A stretch of DNA of 64,000 nucleotides from an uncultured Pelagimonas sp. GTDB taxonomy: Bacteria; Pseudomonadota; Alphaproteobacteria; Rhodobacterales; Rhodobacteraceae. Shown piece after piece: positions 16,236 to 31,765 of the stretch. The notes under the pieces were generated by a model that worked only from the letters and a program-made list of their open reading frames with translations, did no database searches and was not told the origin of the DNA. Location: the NCBI RefSeq assembly GCF_947498515.1, contig NZ_CANMKO010000009.1, positions 124,001 to 188,000 on the forward strand, in the 5' to 3' direction. The position numbers and the translations under genes were made by a program. The stretch's first letter is position 1, and the number at the start of each line of letters is the position of its first letter.

Positions 16236-17039
16236 TTAGGAGTAGGCGATGATCAAAAGGACCACGCCAAGGATGACACGGTAAATGACGTAGGGCGTGA
16301 AGCTGACTGTCTTTAGGAGGCGCATCATCAGGGTCAGAGCTGCGAGCGCCGAAACAAAGGCCATCGCGGCAGCAATGGCCCCGTCGCGGGCGGCTTGAGC
16401 GTCGGCTGTGCTGGCGACTTCTAATCCCAGAAGTGTGCCCGAGGCGATGATGGTCGGGATCGACATCAACATCGATAGTTTGGCGGCGTCATGGCGTGTG
16501 TAGCCAAGTTTGCGCGCGCCGGTAATTGTGATGCCTGAGCGGGACGTGCCGGGGATGAGCGCGACGGCCTGCCATAGGCCCATAATCATCGCGTCTTTGA
16601 GGGTCCAATCAGTCTCGGTCTTGATTTCGGGTCCGGTGCGGTCGGCCCAGTAAAGAACAAGACCGAATCCCAGCATGGTCCAACCGATAACCGCGGTTGA
16701 GCGCATCATATCGTTAAGCCCTGTGAGTTTCAGGAACAGCCCAGCGAGAATGACGGGAATGGTTGCTATAATCAAAAGGAAGGCGAGCCGCGCCCCCGGG
16801 GTGTCTGCTTTGCCGACTAGGAGCCGGGGCAGGCCAAGTAAAACTTGTTTAACATCCGCCCAAAAGTAGAGGATGACCGCGAACAACGTGCCGACGTGGA
16901 CGGCGACATCGATGACCTGTCCTTGGTCCTGAGCGCCAGTGAGATTCGGAAGAAGAATCAGGTGCCCAGAGGAAGAAACCGGTAGAAATTCGGTAATACC
17001 TTGGATCAAAGCGAGAATTAGCAAATAGGTATAGGTCAT
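16236..17039 (-). CDS. uppP: Undecaprenyl-diphosphate phosphatase UppP (BacA)
   Basis: A 267-residue polytopic membrane protein of normal family length. The first conserved region is LIQGITEFLPVSSSGHLILL with the catalytic Glu-containing motif, and the second is PGTSRSGITITGARKLGYTR. It dephosphorylates undecaprenyl diphosphate on the outer face of the inner membrane, recycling the carrier lipid for cell-wall synthesis; overproduction gives bacitracin resistance. The ATG is at 17039. It is convergent with rlmH and divergent from gltD. Confidence 0.96.
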   Translation of the reverse strand: MTYTYLLILALIQGITEFLPVSSSGHLILLPNLTGAQDQGQVIDVAVHVGTLFAVILYFWADVKQVLLGLPRLLVGKADTPGARLAFLLIIATIPVILAGLFLKLTGLNDMMRSTAVIGWTMLGFGLVLYWADRTGPEIKTETDWTLKDAMIMGLWQAVALIPGTSRSGITITGARKLGYTRHDAAKLSMLMSIPTIIASGTLLGLEVASTADAQAARDGAIAAAMAFVSALAALTLMMRLLKTVSFTPYVIYRVILGVVLLIIAYS

Positions 17040-17170
17040 TGGCTTAGCCCAAAGCTACAATTTCGCATGTGTATAACCTATTGTATTCTTTTGGAAAGCT
17101 TTATGTTAAGTCCGAATGGGACCTTTAAAGCGCATCTAAACCTAGGTTTGAACTGTGATGTCCGTGTGAC

Positions 17171-17211
17171 AAAGTGAATAAGGGTCAGCTTTACTGACTT
17201 TTATTCACTTT
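17171..17211. promoter_or_regulatory. Long hairpin in the gltD leader region
   Basis: The left arm AAAGTGAATAAGGGTCAG (17171-17188) and right arm CTGACTTTTATTCACTTT (17194-17211) pair over 18 positions around a 5-base loop CTTTA. Sixteen are Watson-Crick pairs and two are G-T. It ends 54 bases before the gltD start, in the space between divergent uppP and gltD. No long T-run follows, so it is not a simple terminator. It could be a 5' leader stem of gltD mRNA or a dimeric operator. Confidence 0.75.
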
Positions 17212-17265
17212 CAGGCTTGTATATGCAGGCCCGACCCAAGTTCTTTCGAGAAAGAGGCAATGCCG

Positions 17266-18702
17266 ATGGCCAAGCAGCCGATGCTCAAGTTTGTGAATGT
17301 AGATCGTGATATGCCGGAGAAGCGGGATGCTGATCTGCGCAACCAGGATTTCGATGAGATCTATGCGGAGTTCGCCGCGGCGAAAGCTGAGGAGCAGGCG
17401 AGCCGCTGTAGCCAATGTGGTGTCCCCTATTGTCAGAGCCACTGCCCGCTGCACAACAATATTCCTGACTGGCTGCGCCTTACGGCGACCGGCCGTTTGG
17501 AAGAGGCCTATCAGGTCAGCCAAGCCACCAACACCTTTCCGGAAATCTGTGGCCGTATCTGCCCACAGGACCGTTTGTGCGAAGGCAACTGCGTGATCGA
17601 ACAGTCCGGCCACGGCACTGTGACCATCGGGTCGGTTGAGAAGTACATCACTGATACTGCTTGGGAAAAAGGCTGGGTCAAGCCTGTGACCCCCACCCAT
17701 GAGCGCACCGAAAGCGTTGGCATCATCGGCGCTGGCCCCGGTGGCCTTGCGGCGGCGGATATGCTGCGCCGCGCCGGTGTGCAGGTCACGGTTTATGACC
17801 GCTATGACCGCGCAGGCGGCCTTCTGACCTATGGTATCCCCGGCTTTAAGCTGGAAAAAGACATTGTCATGCGTCGCAACAAACAGCTGGAAGACAGCGG
17901 TGTTGAGTTTGTGATGAACTGCGAAATCGGCAAGGACGTGTCCTTTGCGGAGCTGCGTGAAAAGCATGATGCGATCATCGTCGCCACAGGCGTTTACAAG
18001 AGCCGTGACCTTGGTGGGCCGGGTGCCGGTGCCACGGGTATCGTCAAGGCGATCGACTATCTAACTGCTTCTAATCGTGCAGCAAATTTTGGTGACACGG
18101 TTGCGGAATTTGAGAGCGGCGAGCTTAATGCTGAGGGCAAAAAGGTTGTTGTCATCGGTGGGGGTGATACGGCGATGGACTGTGTGCGCACAGCCATTCG
18201 TCAGGGCGCGACAAGCGTCAAATGTCTCTATCGTCGTGACCGCGCCAACATGCCGGGATCGCAGCGCGAAACCCAAAACGCCGAAGAAGAAGGCGTTCAG
18301 TTTGAATGGCTGACCGCGCCCAAAGGTTTCAAAGGTGACGCAGTTGAAGCGGTGATCGTTGAGAAAATGCGCCTTGGGGCCCCGGATGCGTCGGGCCGCC
18401 AAAGCCCTGAAGTTATTGACGGTTCTGAGTATGATGAGCCTGCTGACCTTGTGATCAAGGCGCTTGGCTTCTCCCCCGAGGACCTGCCAACACTTTGGGA
18501 TCAACCCGAGCTGGAAGTGACCCGTTGGGGCACCATCAAGGCCGAGTTCACCACAGGCCGCACGGCAATGCCGGGCGTCTATGCCATTGGCGATATCGTG
18601 CGTGGCGCGAGCCTTGTTGTCTGGGCGATCCGCGACGGGCGCGACTGTGTCGAGGCGGTGTTAACCGACCTTAACGCCAAGGCCGCCGTCGCCGCTGAGT
18701 GA
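17266..18702 (+). CDS. gltD: Glutamate synthase (NADPH) small subunit
   Basis: A 478-residue iron-sulfur flavoprotein that passes electrons from NADPH to the large subunit. The N-terminal domain has two cysteine clusters (CSQCGVPYCQSHCPLHNNIP; CGRICPQDRLCEGNC) for 4Fe-4S centres. It is followed by FAD-binding GAGPGGLAAADML and NADPH-binding GGGDTAMDCVRTA, and ends with the FAD motif YAIGDIVRGASLVVWAI. The ATG at 17266 (MAKQPMLKFV) is chosen over 17260 because AGAGG lies 8 bases upstream of it and the family begins so. gltB lies about 1.3 kb further on, behind two GFA genes. Confidence 0.96.
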   Translation: MAKQPMLKFVNVDRDMPEKRDADLRNQDFDEIYAEFAAAKAEEQASRCSQCGVPYCQSHCPLHNNIPDWLRLTATGRLEEAYQVSQATNTFPEICGRICPQDRLCEGNCVIEQSGHGTVTIGSVEKYITDTAWEKGWVKPVTPTHERTESVGIIGAGPGGLAAADMLRRAGVQVTVYDRYDRAGGLLTYGIPGFKLEKDIVMRRNKQLEDSGVEFVMNCEIGKDVSFAELREKHDAIIVATGVYKSRDLGGPGAGATGIVKAIDYLTASNRAANFGDTVAEFESGELNAEGKKVVVIGGGDTAMDCVRTAIRQGATSVKCLYRRDRANMPGSQRETQNAEEEGVQFEWLTAPKGFKGDAVEAVIVEKMRLGAPDASGRQSPEVIDGSEYDEPADLVIKALGFSPEDLPTLWDQPELEVTRWGTIKAEFTTGRTAMPGVYAIGDIVRGASLVVWAIRDGRDCVEAVLTDLNAKAAVAAE

Positions 18703-18860: not shown

Positions 18861-18936
18861 CGATTCAAGATTAACACAGCTTAAGCGGCAGAGGGGTTGA
18901 CCCAAACACCGCCAAACCTTGCGAAAGGGTAAAGCA

Positions 18937-19380
18937 ATGACAGAGAAGATGGGAGGATGCATGTGCGGAGCGGTTCGTTTCACGGCGCGTGATGTGCCGA
19001 CCAAATTCGGGGCCTGTCATTGTGAGATGTGTCGCCGCTGGACCGGATCGGCCTTGCTTGGGGTGACGGTGCCCGAGGGTAATGTCAGCTGGGATGATGA
19101 AACGCATTTGAAGCGGATCACGTCGAGCCATTGGGCCGAGCGTGGGTTTTGTGACCAATGCGGGTCGGGGATGTTTTTCCGGGTGACGATGCAAGGCGAG
19201 TGGTCGGGCAACCTTGAGTTTCCGATTGGCGTGTTTGACGACCCAAATGGGTTTGAGATGAGCAACGAGATTTACATCGACCACAAGCCCGACAGCTTTG
19301 CCTATGCGGGCGAGGGGCGGACGGTTTTGACGCGGGCGGATTGTGTCGCGAAGTTTGGTGTTTTGGATGAGGGGGCGTGA
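18937..19380 (+). CDS. GFA (Gfa-like/Mss4-fold) family protein, copy 1
   Basis: A 147-residue zinc protein of the glutathione-dependent formaldehyde-activating (GFA) family. The zinc and structural cysteines are in GGCMCGAVRF, CHCEMCRRWTGSA and CDQCGSGMFF. Family members are proposed to help form S-hydroxymethylglutathione, but most have no proven substrate. The ATG at 18937 is preferred to a TTG six codons earlier. A second, diverged GFA gene follows at 19606, about 40% similar by eye, suggesting an old duplication between gltD and gltB. Confidence 0.9.
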   Translation: MTEKMGGCMCGAVRFTARDVPTKFGACHCEMCRRWTGSALLGVTVPEGNVSWDDETHLKRITSSHWAERGFCDQCGSGMFFRVTMQGEWSGNLEFPIGVFDDPNGFEMSNEIYIDHKPDSFAYAGEGRTVLTRADCVAKFGVLDEGA

Positions 19381-19605
19381 GGATGATCACTGAGGGACGC
19401 GCCCGAGCCTGGGTGGGCGCTTGTGACGGTGTTTCATCGAGAAGCATCTCGGTCGTGCCTAACTTTGATTGGCTATCCAGCATCGAGAATGCGCCCTCCC
19501 GTCACGCGAAAAGCGTGCCGACGACTTTGGCGCACCTTTGGGTGCGACGGGACGGTCGGGCGCGGCCCGGCCTGAAGGCCGGGCGGTACGATGCGGAGGT
19601 CCGTT
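19381..19605. other. Intergenic stretch with hairpins between the GFA genes
   Basis: This 225-base gap holds no convincing gene. A strong stem GCCCGGCC/GGCCGGGC with a TGAA loop occupies 19565-19584, and a smaller GCACC/GGTGC stem precedes it near 19530-19545. The stem lies just before the ribosome site (GGAGG, 19595-19599) of the second GFA gene and could lower its translation or end readthrough from the first. Confidence 0.55.
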
Positions 19606-20055
19606 ATGTCTGAGAAAACCGGACAATGCCTCTGTGGTGCTGTCAAATTGACGGCGAAGAATGTGCCGAGCACGTTCAACATCTGCTATTGCGACATGTG
19701 CAAACGCTGGGCCGGTGGCCGCTGGATGGGGCTTCATGTTCCCAAAGGTGACTTGGCCGTGACGGGCATGGATGCGGTCACGACGATTGTCTCTTCGGAC
19801 TGGGCAGAGCGCGCGTTTTGCAACACATGCGGCAGTTCGCTTTGGTACAAACTGACCGAGGGGCCATATGCGGATGCTTGTAGCATTAGCGTTGGCCTTT
19901 TGGATGACACCAGCGATCTGACGCTGAAGAACGAATATTACACTGATCGAAAAACCTGTGCTTACGATTTCCCCAAAGGGCGTAAGCAACTGACCGAGGC
20001 GGAAGTGCTAGCACTGTTTGCGCCCACTGACGCCGAAGAAGGAGAGCCAGAATGA
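19606..20055 (+). CDS. GFA (Gfa-like/Mss4-fold) family protein, copy 2
   Basis: A 149-residue protein of the same zinc family, with GQCLCGAVKL, CYCDMCKRWAGG and CNTCGSSLWYK. The ATG at 19606 has GGAGG six bases upstream. Its stop overlaps the gltB start in an ATGA junction, so it is translationally coupled to glutamate synthase. The coupling suggests a shared expression need, but no role for GFA proteins in nitrogen assimilation is known to me. Confidence 0.9.
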   Translation: MSEKTGQCLCGAVKLTAKNVPSTFNICYCDMCKRWAGGRWMGLHVPKGDLAVTGMDAVTTIVSSDWAERAFCNTCGSSLWYKLTEGPYADACSISVGLLDDTSDLTLKNEYYTDRKTCAYDFPKGRKQLTEAEVLALFAPTDAEEGEPE

Positions 20056-23000
20056 CCAAATATGATGAAAATTGGGTCGCAGCCGAGAAAGCCAAGCGCG
20101 CATGGATGGCCGAAAACGGCCTTTATGACGAAAGCGAAGAGCATTCGTCTTGTGGTGTTGGTTTGGCGGTGTCGATTGATGGCAAGCCGAGCCGCAAGGT
20201 GGTTGAGGCCGGTATCACTGCGCTGAAAGCGATTTGGCACCGCGGCGCGGTTGATGCCGACGGCAAGACCGGTGACGGCGCGGGCATTCACGTGCAAATC
20301 CCGGTGAATTTCTTTTACGATCAGGTCGAGCGCACAGGGCACCGCCCGCGCAAAGATGAGCTGATTGCGGTGGGGCAGGTGTTCCTGCCACGTACCGATT
20401 TTGGCGCGCAAGAGACATGCCGGACCATCGTGGAAACCGAAGTTCTGCGCATGGGGTACTACATTTATGGCTGGCGCCATGTGCCGGTGCATGTGGCGTG
20501 CTTGGGTGAGAAGGCCAATGCGACCCGCCCTGAGATCGAGCAGATTTTGATCTCGAACTCTAAGGGTGTGGACGAAGAGCAGTTTGAGCGTGAGCTTTAT
20601 GTGATCCGTCGCCGGATTGAAAAGGCGGCTGCGGCTGCGGCCGTGGGTGAGCTTTATATTGCGTCGCTGTCGTGCCGGTCGATCATTTACAAGGGCATGA
20701 TGTTGGCCGAGCAGGTGGCGGAGTTCTATCCCGACCTGCAGGACGAGCGGTTTGAATCGTCTTTCGCGATTTATCACCAGCGGTATTCGACCAACACCTT
20801 CCCGCAGTGGTGGTTGGCACAGCCGTTCCGCATGTTGGCGCATAACGGCGAGATCAACACGCTTAAGGGCAACGTCAACTGGATGAAATCGCACGAGATC
20901 CGCATGGCGTCGGCGTCGTTTGGTGATTTCGCAGAAGACATCAAGCCGATCATTTCCAACGGCGCGTCGGATTCGGCGGCTTTGGATGGGGTGTTTGAGG
21001 TGCTGGTGCGCGCGGGTCGTAGCGCCCCGATGGCGAAAACCATGTTGGTCCCTGAAAGCTGGTCCAAGCAGGCGGTGGAATTGCCGCAGGCGTGGCGCGA
21101 TATGTATAGCTATTGCAACGGTGTGATGGAGCCATGGGATGGCCCGGCCGCCTTGGCGATGACCGATGGCCGTTGGGTTTGTGGTGGTCTTGACCGGAAT
21201 GGTCTGCGCCCGATGCGTTATGTTGTGACCGGTGACGGGATGCTGATCGCCGGGTCGGAAACCGGGATGGTGCCGACCGATGAGGGCACGGTTCGCGAAA
21301 AAGGCGCGCTTGGGCCGGGTCAGATGATTGCGGTCGATATGAAAGACGGCAAGCTCTACCACGACACTGAAATCAAAGACCGCCTGTCTTCGGCGCTGCC
21401 GTTTGGCGAGTGGGTTCAAAAGATCACCGAGCTTGACGGGCCATTGGGTGCGTTGACCGAGAAGGCGATGTTTGAGGGCGCGGAATTGCGCACCCGTCAG
21501 ATCGCCGCCGGCTATAGTGTTGAAGAGCTTGAGCAAATCCTTGCGCCGATGGCCGAGGATGGCAAAGAAACGTTGGCCTCGATGGGGGATGACACCCCAA
21601 GCGCGGTTCTGTCGAAGAAATACCGCCCGCTGAGCCATTATTTCCGTCAGAACTTTAGCCAGGTGACCAACCCGCCGATCGATTCATTGCGCGAATATCG
21701 CGTCATGTCGCTTAAGACGCGGTTCGGAAACCTCAAGAACGTTTTGGATGAAAGCAGCGCGCAGACCGAGATTTTGGTTCTGGACACGCCGTTTGTTGGC
21801 AACGCTCAGTTTGATGAGCTGCAAAAGCAGTTCAACTCGCCCTGTGTGACCATTGATTGTACCTTTGAAGCGGGTTCCGGTGCGCTTCGCGAAGGCTTGG
21901 ATCGTATCCGTTCGGAAGCCGAAGACGCGGTGCGCTCGGGTTCCGGCCACATCATCCTAACCGACGAAAACGTTGGCGCGGACAAAGTGGCGATGCCGAT
22001 GATCTTGGCCACCAGCGCGGTGCATAGCCATCTGACCCGCAAGGGCCTTCGGACCTTCTGTAGCCTCAACGTGCGCAGCGCCGAATGTATCGACCCGCAT
22101 TACTTTGCGGTTCTGATCGGCTCGGGTGCGACCGTGGTCAACGCCTATCTGGCCGAAGACAGCCTTGCCGACCGGATCAATCGCGGGTTGCTTGACCTGA
22201 CCTTGACCGAAGCCGTTGCGAAGTATCGCGAAGCGGTGGATCAGGGCCTTCTCAAGATCATGTCCAAAATGGGGATTTCGGTGATTTCCTCCTATCGTGG
22301 TGGTTTGAACTTTGAGGCCGTTGGCCTGTCGCGGGCGATGTGTGCAGAATTCTTCCCCGGCATGATCAGCCGTATTTCTGGCATCGGCCTTGGCGGTTTG
22401 CAGAAAAAAGCCGAAGAAATCCACGCCTTGGCCTATGCCAATGGTCAGGATGTCTTGCCGATTGGTGGTTTTTACAAAGCGCGTAAATCCGGTGAAACCC
22501 ACGCGTGGGGCGCACAGACCATGCATTTGCTGCAATCGGCCTGTGACCGTGCCAGCTATGAGATGTGGAAGACCTATTCCAAAGCGATGCAGGCCAACCC
22601 GCCGATCCATCTTCGCGATCTGTTGGCGATCAAGCCCTTGGGCGAGCCGATCAACATCGAAGAAGTGGAAAGCATCACTTCGATCCGCAAGCGTTTCGTG
22701 ACGCCGGGCATGTCCCTTGGCGCGCTGTCGCCTGAGGCGCATAAAACGCTTAACGTGGCGATGAACCGGATCGGTGCAAAGTCGGATTCCGGTGAGGGCG
22801 GCGAAGATCCGGCACATTTTGTACCGGAGCCAAATGGCGACAACCCGAGTGCGAAGATCAAGCAGGTGGCCTCGGGTCGGTTTGGTGTCACAGCCGAATA
22901 TCTGAACCACTGTGAAGAGCTTGAGATCAAGGTAGCTCAGGGCGCGAAACCCGGTGAGGGTGGTCAGCTTCCGGGGATGAAAGTCACCGATCTGATTGCG

Positions 23001-24587
23001 CGTCTGCGCCATTCGACCAAAGGCGTGACGCTTATTTCGCCGCCTCCGCATCACGACATCTATTCGATCGAAGACCTTGCGCAGCTGATCTATGACCTTA
23101 AGCAGATCAACCCGCGCTGTAAGGTGACGGTGAAATTGGTGGCGTCCTCGGGCGTTGGCACAATTGCCGCCGGTGTGGCCAAGGCCGAGGCCGATGTGAT
23201 CCTGATTTCGGGTCACAATGGCGGCACAGGTGCCTCGCCTGCGACCTCGATCAAACACGCCGGTTTGCCATGGGAAATGGGTCTGACCGAAGCGCATCAG
23301 GTTCTGGCGATGAACAAGCTGCGCGACCGGGTGACATTGCGGACCGATGGCGGTTTGCGCACCGGGCGTGACATTGTCATGGCGGCGATGCTGGGGGCCG
23401 AGGAGTATGGTATCGGCACCGCGGCGCTGATCGCGATGGGCTGTATCATGGTCCGTCAGTGTCAGTCCAACACCTGCCCGGTTGGGGTTTGTACGCAGGA
23501 TCAAGACCTGCGCGACAAGTTCACCGGTTCGGCGGATAAGGTTGTGAACCTGATCACCTTCTACGCACAAGAAGTGCGTGAGATTTTGGCCTCGATTGGT
23601 GCCAAAACCTTGGACGAAGTGATTGGCCGTGCTGATCTGTTGTCTCAGGTGTCGCGTGGGTCCGAGCATCTGGATGACCTGGATTTGAACCCGTTGTTGA
23701 TCCGTGTCGATGGGTCGGATGACATCGTTTATGACCGGGATCGTGGTCGTAACGAGGTGCCTGATACGCTAGATGCGGAGATCGTGCGCGACGCGGCCCG
23801 CTTCCTTGAGGATGGGGAGAAGATGCAGCTGTCTTATGCGGTGATGAACACCCATCGGACCGTGGGCACACGGACATCGAGCCACATCGTGCAGAAGTTC
23901 GGCATGCGCAACGCGTTGCAGCCCGATCATTTGCACGTCAAGCTGACCGGCTCGGCGGGTCAGTCGTTGGGGGCCTTTGCGGCACCGGGGCTGAAGATCG
24001 AAGTGTCGGGTGATGCGAACGACTATGTTGGCAAGGGCCTTTCGGGGGGCACGGTTGTTGTGCGTCCACCGTTGGTGTCGCCGCTGACCGCGTCGGAAAA
24101 CACCATCATCGGCAACACGGTTTTGTACGGTGCGACAGACGGTTACCTGTTTGCAGCGGGCCGCGCCGGTGAGCGTTTTGCGGTTCGGAACTCGGGTGCG
24201 AGCGTGGTGATTGAGGGCTGTGGCAGCAACGGTTGTGAATATATGACCGGTGGTGTTGCGGTGATCCTTGGCTCGATCGGGGCGAACTTTGGCGCGGGGA
24301 TGACCGGCGGCATGGCGTATCTTTATGACCCTGAAGGTTTGGCCGATGATCTGATGAACATGGAAGGTTTGGTAACCTGTCCGGTGGTGACGCCGGAATG
24401 GGAAGCCCAGCTTTTGGGATTGATCGAGCGCCATGTGGCCGAGACCCGGAGCCGCAAGGGTGAGGAAATCTTGCAGAACTGGGATCTTGAGAAGGCCAAT
24501 TTCGTGCAGGTTTGCCCGAAGGAGATGTTGGACAAGATCAAGCACCCGCTTGGGATTGAGGATCAACTGGCCGTTCCTGCGGAGTAA
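20052..24587 (+). CDS. gltB: Glutamate synthase (NADPH) large subunit
   Basis: A 1511-residue enzyme that makes two glutamates from glutamine and 2-oxoglutarate. A 33-residue propeptide precedes Cys34 (SSCGVGLAV), the N-terminal nucleophile of the class II glutaminase domain (to about 430). A central domain follows, then the FMN synthase domain (about 830-1200) with GGEDPAHF, ISGHNGGTGASP and the 3Fe-4S cysteines of CIMVRQCQSNTCPVGVC. The C-terminal part is the GXGXG beta-helix (GANFGAGMTGGMAYLYDPEG). All key residues are present. The ATG overlaps the stop of GFA copy 2. Several long antisense frames here are shadows. Confidence 0.98.
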   Translation: MTKYDENWVAAEKAKRAWMAENGLYDESEEHSSCGVGLAVSIDGKPSRKVVEAGITALKAIWHRGAVDADGKTGDGAGIHVQIPVNFFYDQVERTGHRPRKDELIAVGQVFLPRTDFGAQETCRTIVETEVLRMGYYIYGWRHVPVHVACLGEKANATRPEIEQILISNSKGVDEEQFERELYVIRRRIEKAAAAAAVGELYIASLSCRSIIYKGMMLAEQVAEFYPDLQDERFESSFAIYHQRYSTNTFPQWWLAQPFRMLAHNGEINTLKGNVNWMKSHEIRMASASFGDFAEDIKPIISNGASDSAALDGVFEVLVRAGRSAPMAKTMLVPESWSKQAVELPQAWRDMYSYCNGVMEPWDGPAALAMTDGRWVCGGLDRNGLRPMRYVVTGDGMLIAGSETGMVPTDEGTVREKGALGPGQMIAVDMKDGKLYHDTEIKDRLSSALPFGEWVQKITELDGPLGALTEKAMFEGAELRTRQIAAGYSVEELEQILAPMAEDGKETLASMGDDTPSAVLSKKYRPLSHYFRQNFSQVTNPPIDSLREYRVMSLKTRFGNLKNVLDESSAQTEILVLDTPFVGNAQFDELQKQFNSPCVTIDCTFEAGSGALREGLDRIRSEAEDAVRSGSGHIILTDENVGADKVAMPMILATSAVHSHLTRKGLRTFCSLNVRSAECIDPHYFAVLIGSGATVVNAYLAEDSLADRINRGLLDLTLTEAVAKYREAVDQGLLKIMSKMGISVISSYRGGLNFEAVGLSRAMCAEFFPGMISRISGIGLGGLQKKAEEIHALAYANGQDVLPIGGFYKARKSGETHAWGAQTMHLLQSACDRASYEMWKTYSKAMQANPPIHLRDLLAIKPLGEPINIEEVESITSIRKRFVTPGMSLGALSPEAHKTLNVAMNRIGAKSDSGEGGEDPAHFVPEPNGDNPSAKIKQVASGRFGVTAEYLNHCEELEIKVAQGAKPGEGGQLPGMKVTDLIARLRHSTKGVTLISPPPHHDIYSIEDLAQLIYDLKQINPRCKVTVKLVASSGVGTIAAGVAKAEADVILISGHNGGTGASPATSIKHAGLPWEMGLTEAHQVLAMNKLRDRVTLRTDGGLRTGRDIVMAAMLGAEEYGIGTAALIAMGCIMVRQCQSNTCPVGVCTQDQDLRDKFTGSADKVVNLITFYAQEVREILASIGAKTLDEVIGRADLLSQVSRGSEHLDDLDLNPLLIRVDGSDDIVYDRDRGRNEVPDTLDAEIVRDAARFLEDGEKMQLSYAVMNTHRTVGTRTSSHIVQKFGMRNALQPDHLHVKLTGSAGQSLGAFAAPGLKIEVSGDANDYVGKGLSGGTVVVRPPLVSPLTASENTIIGNTVLYGATDGYLFAAGRAGERFAVRNSGASVVIEGCGSNGCEYMTGGVAVILGSIGANFGAGMTGGMAYLYDPEGLADDLMNMEGLVTCPVVTPEWEAQLLGLIERHVAETRSRKGEEILQNWDLEKANFVQVCPKEMLDKIKHPLGIEDQLAVPAE

Positions 24588-24702: not shown

Positions 24703-24774
24703 GTAGACGGGTGCGGCGCTATTTGCGATGCAAAGGCGCCCCGCCCACCGTCCCATTTGGCGCTAAAGATAAAG

Positions 24775-24802
24775 CCCCGCTGACTTTGGTCGGCGGGGTT
24801 TT
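24775..24802 (+). terminator. Intrinsic terminator downstream of gltB
   Basis: CCCCGCTGAC (24775-24784) pairs with GTCGGCGGGG (24789-24798) over ten positions, one of them T-G, around the loop TTTG. TTTT follows. It is about 190 bases after gltB and beyond the 110-base inverted repeat, so transcription of gltB may run through that element. Confidence 0.85.
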
Positions 24803-24964
24803 GCATTACGCAGGGTAAATTACCTTGATTTTGCCACAAATCCGGCACGCCTCCGGCAGGATTGGTGAGCAGGGTTAACGTATTGCAAAAGTGTGGGTGA
24901 CGAGTGACCCAGTATTGTTTGAAAATGTTGCCCGGATGCCCCTGGTTTATTCAGTCCGGGATAG

Positions 24965-31647: not shown

Positions 31648-31734
31648 CGCAGATCGCCAAAACGCTTTGCTGAACCCATCATTGCCGTGCCCGTTTTGCG
31701 TTTTGGCATTGAGGGTTTTGGTGGCACGATAAAG

Positions 31735-31765
31735 AAGCCCCCGAATTGGTTTTCGGGGGCTTTTT
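31735..31765 (+). terminator. Intrinsic terminator of the msrBA operon
   Basis: AAGCCCCCGAA (31735-31745) pairs perfectly with TTCGGGGGCTT (31752-31762) around a six-base loop, and the T-run continues to 31765. It is 88 bases after the msrA stop. Confidence 0.92.

Follow-up and report, generated by a model that had tools for sequence, protein, structure and literature searches.

An 18-pair inverted repeat lies upstream of gltD in the 64-kb stretch of DNA analysed here (64,000 nucleotides from an uncultured Pelagimonas sp., hereafter the window), and it is likely to be the proximal member of a phased operator pair at which one dimeric factor would activate gltD, the same factor repressing a gene for indolepyruvate ferredoxin oxidoreductase (ior) elsewhere in the genome. 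Comparison of the upstream regions showed that the predicted operator motif is conserved, that the spacing between the two putative sites is fixed and changes by one helical turn between groups of genomes, and that the motif recurs at ior. A phased operator pair is a familiar kind of arrangement, and the operator reading reaches far beyond the single sequence in which the stem was noticed; the pair is probably used by a protein that controls glutamate synthesis in many Alphaproteobacteria.

The inverted repeat occupies 17171-17211 (no strand assigned), with arms at 17171-17188 and 17194-17211 and a 5-nt loop. A recount gave the same coordinates and the same pairing at all 18 positions as the preliminary description, with 16 Watson-Crick pairs and two adjacent G-T pairs. 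When the whole 64 kb was scanned for stems (G-T allowed, loop 3-12), this was the sole stem of at least 18 pairs, and no stem of at least 16 pairs turned up in 12 first-order Markov versions of the window. The 18-pair stem is real and unusual for the window. The runners-up in the window were at 24770-24803 (15 pairs) and 31732-31765 (14 pairs), and the former lies 183 bp 3' of gltB and could be the gltB terminator.

The stem is located between two genes that face apart, uppP (undecaprenyl-diphosphate phosphatase, 16236-17039, minus strand) and gltD (glutamate synthase small subunit, 17260-18702, plus strand), both above the curated NCBIfam cut-offs. It had been described as lying away from any gene end and as lacking a terminator T-run, and both statements agree with what we found: an intrinsic terminator was rejected, with no terminator-like site and no combination of a G+C stem and a T-run in 17000-17300. 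The true start of gltD may be 17266, and relatives mostly begin at the equivalent ATGGCN as judged by eye. The large-subunit gene gltB (20052-24587, plus strand, assigned by NCBIfam) is separated from gltD by two GFA-family (PF04828) genes at 18919-19380 and 19591-20055 on the plus strand.

Conservation of the region was visible only when gltD was used as an anchor, since direct sequence searches gave no matches elsewhere. The 161-bp region matched only itself in its own genome, the 123-bp region had no match in 148 further family genomes out of the 149 searched, and the perfect TAGGTCAG-N5-CTGACCTA arrangement was found in none of 295 family genomes. Using GltD as the anchor, we assembled a family set of 83 gltD upstream regions, comprising the best 80 of 595 GltD matches, the window locus and two congeners; by record title the best 80 were mostly from Rhodobacteraceae-type genera, with a few MAGs labelled Proteobacteria, Alphaproteobacteria or Rhodobacterales. 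In this set, the palindrome tAGGTCAGnnnnnCTGACTTTTatt was present at the position of the stem in 82 of the 83 regions. The proximal operator is predicted at 17181-17201 on the plus strand (centre 17191), where the window reads AGGGTCAGCTTTACTGACTTT and the family consensus is TAGGTCAGnAtnnCTGACTTT. A consensus match of at least 12/16 was obtained in 82/83 loci of this best-80-of-595 set, compared with 5/830 shuffled controls (dinucleotide shuffles, with simple shuffles as a fallback), the consensus and matrix having been derived from the same 83 sites that were then scored; the distal and class scans described below used other positions or genomes. The exception, L028, scored 10, which is inside the control range, and in L074 and L085 the best match lay unusually far out, at 186 and 136 nt before the gene. 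In the ungapped alignment of the 83 loci on the motif, G2, A5, T13, C16 and T18 were invariant.

A second conserved element accompanies the motif at a fixed distance. In the same set drawn from the best 80 of 595 matches, a TA dinucleotide lies 40-41 nt downstream of the first A of the motif (T in 71/83 loci and A in 75/83), and in the window it falls at 17222-17223 within a -10-like element, TATATGCA (17220-17227, plus strand). From this TA, gltD transcription is predicted to begin 3' of the stem, near 17231-17234, so that the centre of the predicted proximal operator would be at about -41 to -43. The -35 region given by a 17-bp spacing is a poor one, TTTTAT at 17199-17204 (plus strand), and the right half of the proximal operator overlaps it; no consensus sigma-70 promoter was found on the plus strand in 17000-17300. 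Across the family loci the dyad keeps both its sequence and its position in the promoter, and a motif with a TA at constant distance is what a putative operator beside a -10 element is expected to look like.

In the 83 family loci (best 80 of 595), sequence information increases again 50-77 nt ahead of the proximal site, and here a distal operator is predicted. In the window it is an imperfect copy, TTAAGTCCGAATGGGACCTTT (17106-17126, plus strand), with a centre-to-centre distance of 75 bp from the proximal site. This distal site would not convince from the window alone, where it agrees at 6/10 symmetric positions compared with 7/10 for an unconserved neighbour at 17134-17153. When the proximal matrix was applied to the segment about 60-99 bp upstream, a score of at least 5 was reached in 38/83 loci of the best-80-of-595 set, compared with 12/1660 simple shuffles, and 35 of these 38 sites were at 74-75 bp centre to centre. 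Other family loci carry a variant distal palindrome of the TTAGGTCCGAATCGGACCTAA type. Scored as a palindrome, the distal site reached at least 9 in 38/83 loci of this set (8.7% in simple shuffles) and did not in 45/83, and the spacing was 73-75 bp in 33 of the 38. The use of one motif at either position suggests that a single protein serves the two. As a side observation, a sigma-70-like promoter directed toward uppP (TTAACA-18-TACAAT, 10/12) was found at 17080-17109 on the minus strand, where 0.5 is the chance expectation in the region; its first hexamer overlaps the edge of the distal operator, and uppP may be affected too.

The same arrangement was found beyond the family. Our class sample consisted of 114 genomes, 54 with a strong GltD match, and 49 upstream regions were scored, five of the 54 gltD-bearing genomes (G000, G321, G358, G365 and G386) being left out. 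The proximal motif was detected at p <= 0.02 by simple shuffling in 33 of the 49 regions, and 16 had no significant proximal site. For the distal scan, 31 of the 33 loci were used, one family member and one locus short of sequence being excluded. In 20/31 class loci a distal TTAG...CTAA-type palindrome scored at least 9, compared with 7.3% of simple shuffles, and in 11/31 none reached this score. Of these 20 sites, 16 were at 83-85 bp from the proximal site, two at 74-75 bp, and the others at 49 and 64 bp. The family and class spacing modes are therefore 10 bp apart, which is one helical turn, and we read this difference as apparent selection that keeps the two predicted sites facing the same side of the double helix. 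A second, like site thus lies at a whole number of turns from the first, some loci having no scorable second site. In class loci gltD mostly precedes gltB by coordinates, and the upstream regions of gltB in 30 class loci gave no score above within-gene controls. One genome from a different family (L157 position 1478, G296:C34) has two GltB-like genes, and the motif (score 23.7) was observed before the second, a gltB-like gene of 45% identity.

A search of the window's own genome with the first pattern, allowing at most one mismatch, returned gltD and only one other place, with none in the control. This other place lies between a LysR gene and the divergent ior. Over its first 499 residues, the ior product hits indolepyruvate ferredoxin oxidoreductase models at E 4e-190, which falls short of the curated cut-off as the stretch is cut; the ior stretch gave no match in Pfam. 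Among the best 30 loci anchored on the LysR protein, 26 carry (A/G)GGTCA-N7-TGACCT(A/T) between lysR and ior, and in 21 of these 26 a hexamer matching TATAAT at no fewer than 4/6 positions lies at the edge of the motif, so the motif at ior appears to overlap the core promoter. In the four loci without the site, inspection by eye revealed no oxidoreductase start adjoining the LysR gene, and thus the site seems to follow the oxidoreductase gene.

No wider regulon was apparent: the symmetric pattern with two mismatches was found at 13 places in the window's own genome and at 16 with the reversed control. A relaxed motif gave 55 matches in 25 family genomes compared with 12 for the reversed control, and no enrichment in 16 genomes outside the family (10 compared with 15). 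Of 50 motif loci, 20 of them hand-picked from the list and with some places counted twice, 17 were at GltD, 13 at the oxidoreductase, two at GltB and 18 at none of these. The further matches away from gltD and ior look, at least in part, like chance. Two places are recorded as observations. In a single genome, a near-perfect symmetric copy, TAAGTCAGCATTGCTGACTTA (score 30.3; L133 position 1502, G018:C12:392645), lies upstream of an ORF resembling dihydroorotase by eye, and a congener carries two motif copies 134 bp apart close to a contig end (L154 positions 1486 and 1620, G002:C7), where no target gene could be seen.

From these features, the following mechanism can be proposed. One dimeric factor would bind both palindromes, the proximal one with its centre some 42 bp ahead of the gltD start and the related distal one whole helical turns further upstream. 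Two dimers bound in this way would sit on the same side of the helix and could touch if the DNA between them bends. Activator-dependent promoters typically combine a poor -35 with a site centred near -42. As the proximal site lies over the poor -35 and next to the conserved -10, the factor most likely activates gltD, and as the motif lies over the core promoter of ior, it most likely represses ior; in both cases the sign is taken from geometry alone. The same operators could instead serve a factor that represses gltD by two-site looping and occlusion of the -35. The overlap of the proximal site with the -35 position, the helical phasing, which suits a repression loop equally well, and the location of the site over the core promoter at ior all speak for such repression. 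However, the -42 centre combined with a poor -35, and the lack of a consensus sigma-70 promoter on the plus strand of 17000-17300, are more in keeping with an activator, and we regard repression of gltD as rather unlikely.

The preliminary description had offered either a leader stem or an operator, and of these the operator has gained support from the motif kept in 82/83 family loci (best 80 of 595) and in 33/49 class loci. An RNA hairpin acting in cis from the gltD leader would account for the 18 pairs and for the RNA fold of 17140-17259, which has a z of -3.44 against 200 shuffles. However, only the core at about 17181-17205 is conserved, the outer arms being specific to the window genome; starting at the loop, pairing in the window runs for 18 positions without a break, whereas the next best of the other 82 loci (best 80 of 595) reach nine, and the first pair already fails in 37/83. 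Covariation in relatives, which had been put forward as a check on the stem, was absent at the 18 pairs in the 83 loci of the best-80-of-595 set, as pairing counts were close to the column expectation. Rfam gave no match at the stem at curated thresholds and a single one, SNORA27 (E 1.3), at E <= 5, and the -10-like element at 17220-17227 lies downstream of the stem. The two G-T pairs, taken earlier as a sign of an RNA role, need no such explanation, because the operator itself is asymmetric and the window carries one change: nearly all relatives have a right half-site ending in CTGACT, not CTGACC (offset 17 is T in 78/83 loci), and at offset 0 the window has G where 78 of the 82 relatives have A, both in the best-80-of-595 set. 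The stem is probably not an RNA switch, and we consider a leader hairpin highly improbable. It can also be asked whether the outer arms are functional, for example as a lineage-specific operator of higher affinity, since so many extra pairs seem unlikely to have arisen by chance. The comparison with the two congeners, which suggests how the long stem may have arisen, argues against this: L004 has the left outer arm AAAGTGAAT without its right-hand complement, L003 has neither arm, both read TTA in place of the window's AAG, and the arms are unconserved in the family. A functional role of the arms is therefore very unlikely, and their perfect pairing is most likely an accident of the window lineage, which illustrates that an operator can be lengthened by accident into a striking stem in a single genome.

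As for the protein that would use the predicted operators, the LysR gene divergent from ior is the first candidate to consider. It is present in 58/61 family genomes, and its product is close to Agrobacterium tumefaciens LsrB (PDB 9HH1, PMC11975290; phmmer E 1.4e-72). In 26 of the best 30 loci the site is found in the lysR-ior interval; it fits T-N11-A and can be aligned in register with the box reported for VtlR, GCAT-N3-TG-N3-T (PMC7486931). In the gltD site, however, only the TG and T of this box are conserved in register and the GCAT part is weak, with C7 in 38/83 loci (best 80 of 595). The gltD site is also not confined to genomes with the gene: it is kept in 5/9 gltD-bearing genomes without the LysR gene (no match at E <= 1e-45), compared with 28/40 with it (Fisher p 0.45; simple shuffles served as controls in this gene-presence comparison). 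When the nine genomes were searched permissively, five gave only LysR proteins of 25-35% identity and four gave no match, and the four LysR loci without an adjoining ior start also lack the site. For the persistence of the site in gene-less genomes with only distant LysR proteins, LsrB was not assigned to it, and an LsrB/VtlR-type factor encoded beside ior is unlikely to be the gltD/ior regulator. A search with Rfam for the abcR sRNA beside lsrB gave no match in 15 of 30 loci. Near gltBD, inspection by eye of the 40 ORF clusters listed for 20 class neighbourhoods and the window revealed no transcription-factor gene except an RpoN-like gene, seen in eight loci; that the factor might be an Lrp/AsnC-type protein is no more than a guess from analogy.

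The predicted operators can be compared with known systems. NtrC sites are of the form TGCAC-N-GTGCA, which the gltD motif does not resemble. The target genes are nevertheless the same, as NtrC is reported to control gltBD in some alphaproteobacteria (PMC5343134). As in E. coli gltBDF, which involves Lrp and IHF, a glutamate synthase promoter would be run from upstream sites whose helical phase matters; there, a 5-bp insertion upstream of gltB reportedly lowers expression and a 10-bp insertion does not (PMC1784095). In contrast, the Lrp sites described there are at -152, -215 and -246, whereas those predicted here are at about -42 and -117 from the inferred start, and the sequence of the sites and the regulators differ. 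The box published for VtlR/LsrB, GCAT-N3-TG-N3-T (PMC7486931, PMC8844928), shares with our motif a register-compatible core, the generic T-N11-A and a homologous LysR gene beside one target; unlike that box as presented in these sources, our motif has additional conserved GGT/ACC outer half-sites, and its gltD copy persists in gene-less genomes. Among open-licence PMC papers, we found no description of the motif at gltD.

In conclusion, the stem upstream of gltD is best read as part of a predicted phased operator pair. We tentatively propose that it may belong to an undescribed core alphaproteobacterial regulator, which would activate glutamate synthase by looping and repress indolepyruvate oxidoreductase, and whose gltD operators would have stayed in register since early in the class while their spacing shifted by a full turn. 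Glutamate synthase is a main entry of nitrogen into amino acids, and a gltD promoter design that is kept across many alphaproteobacterial families, with a one-turn shift in spacing, points to an important regulator acting here, for which the conserved motif can be used as bait.
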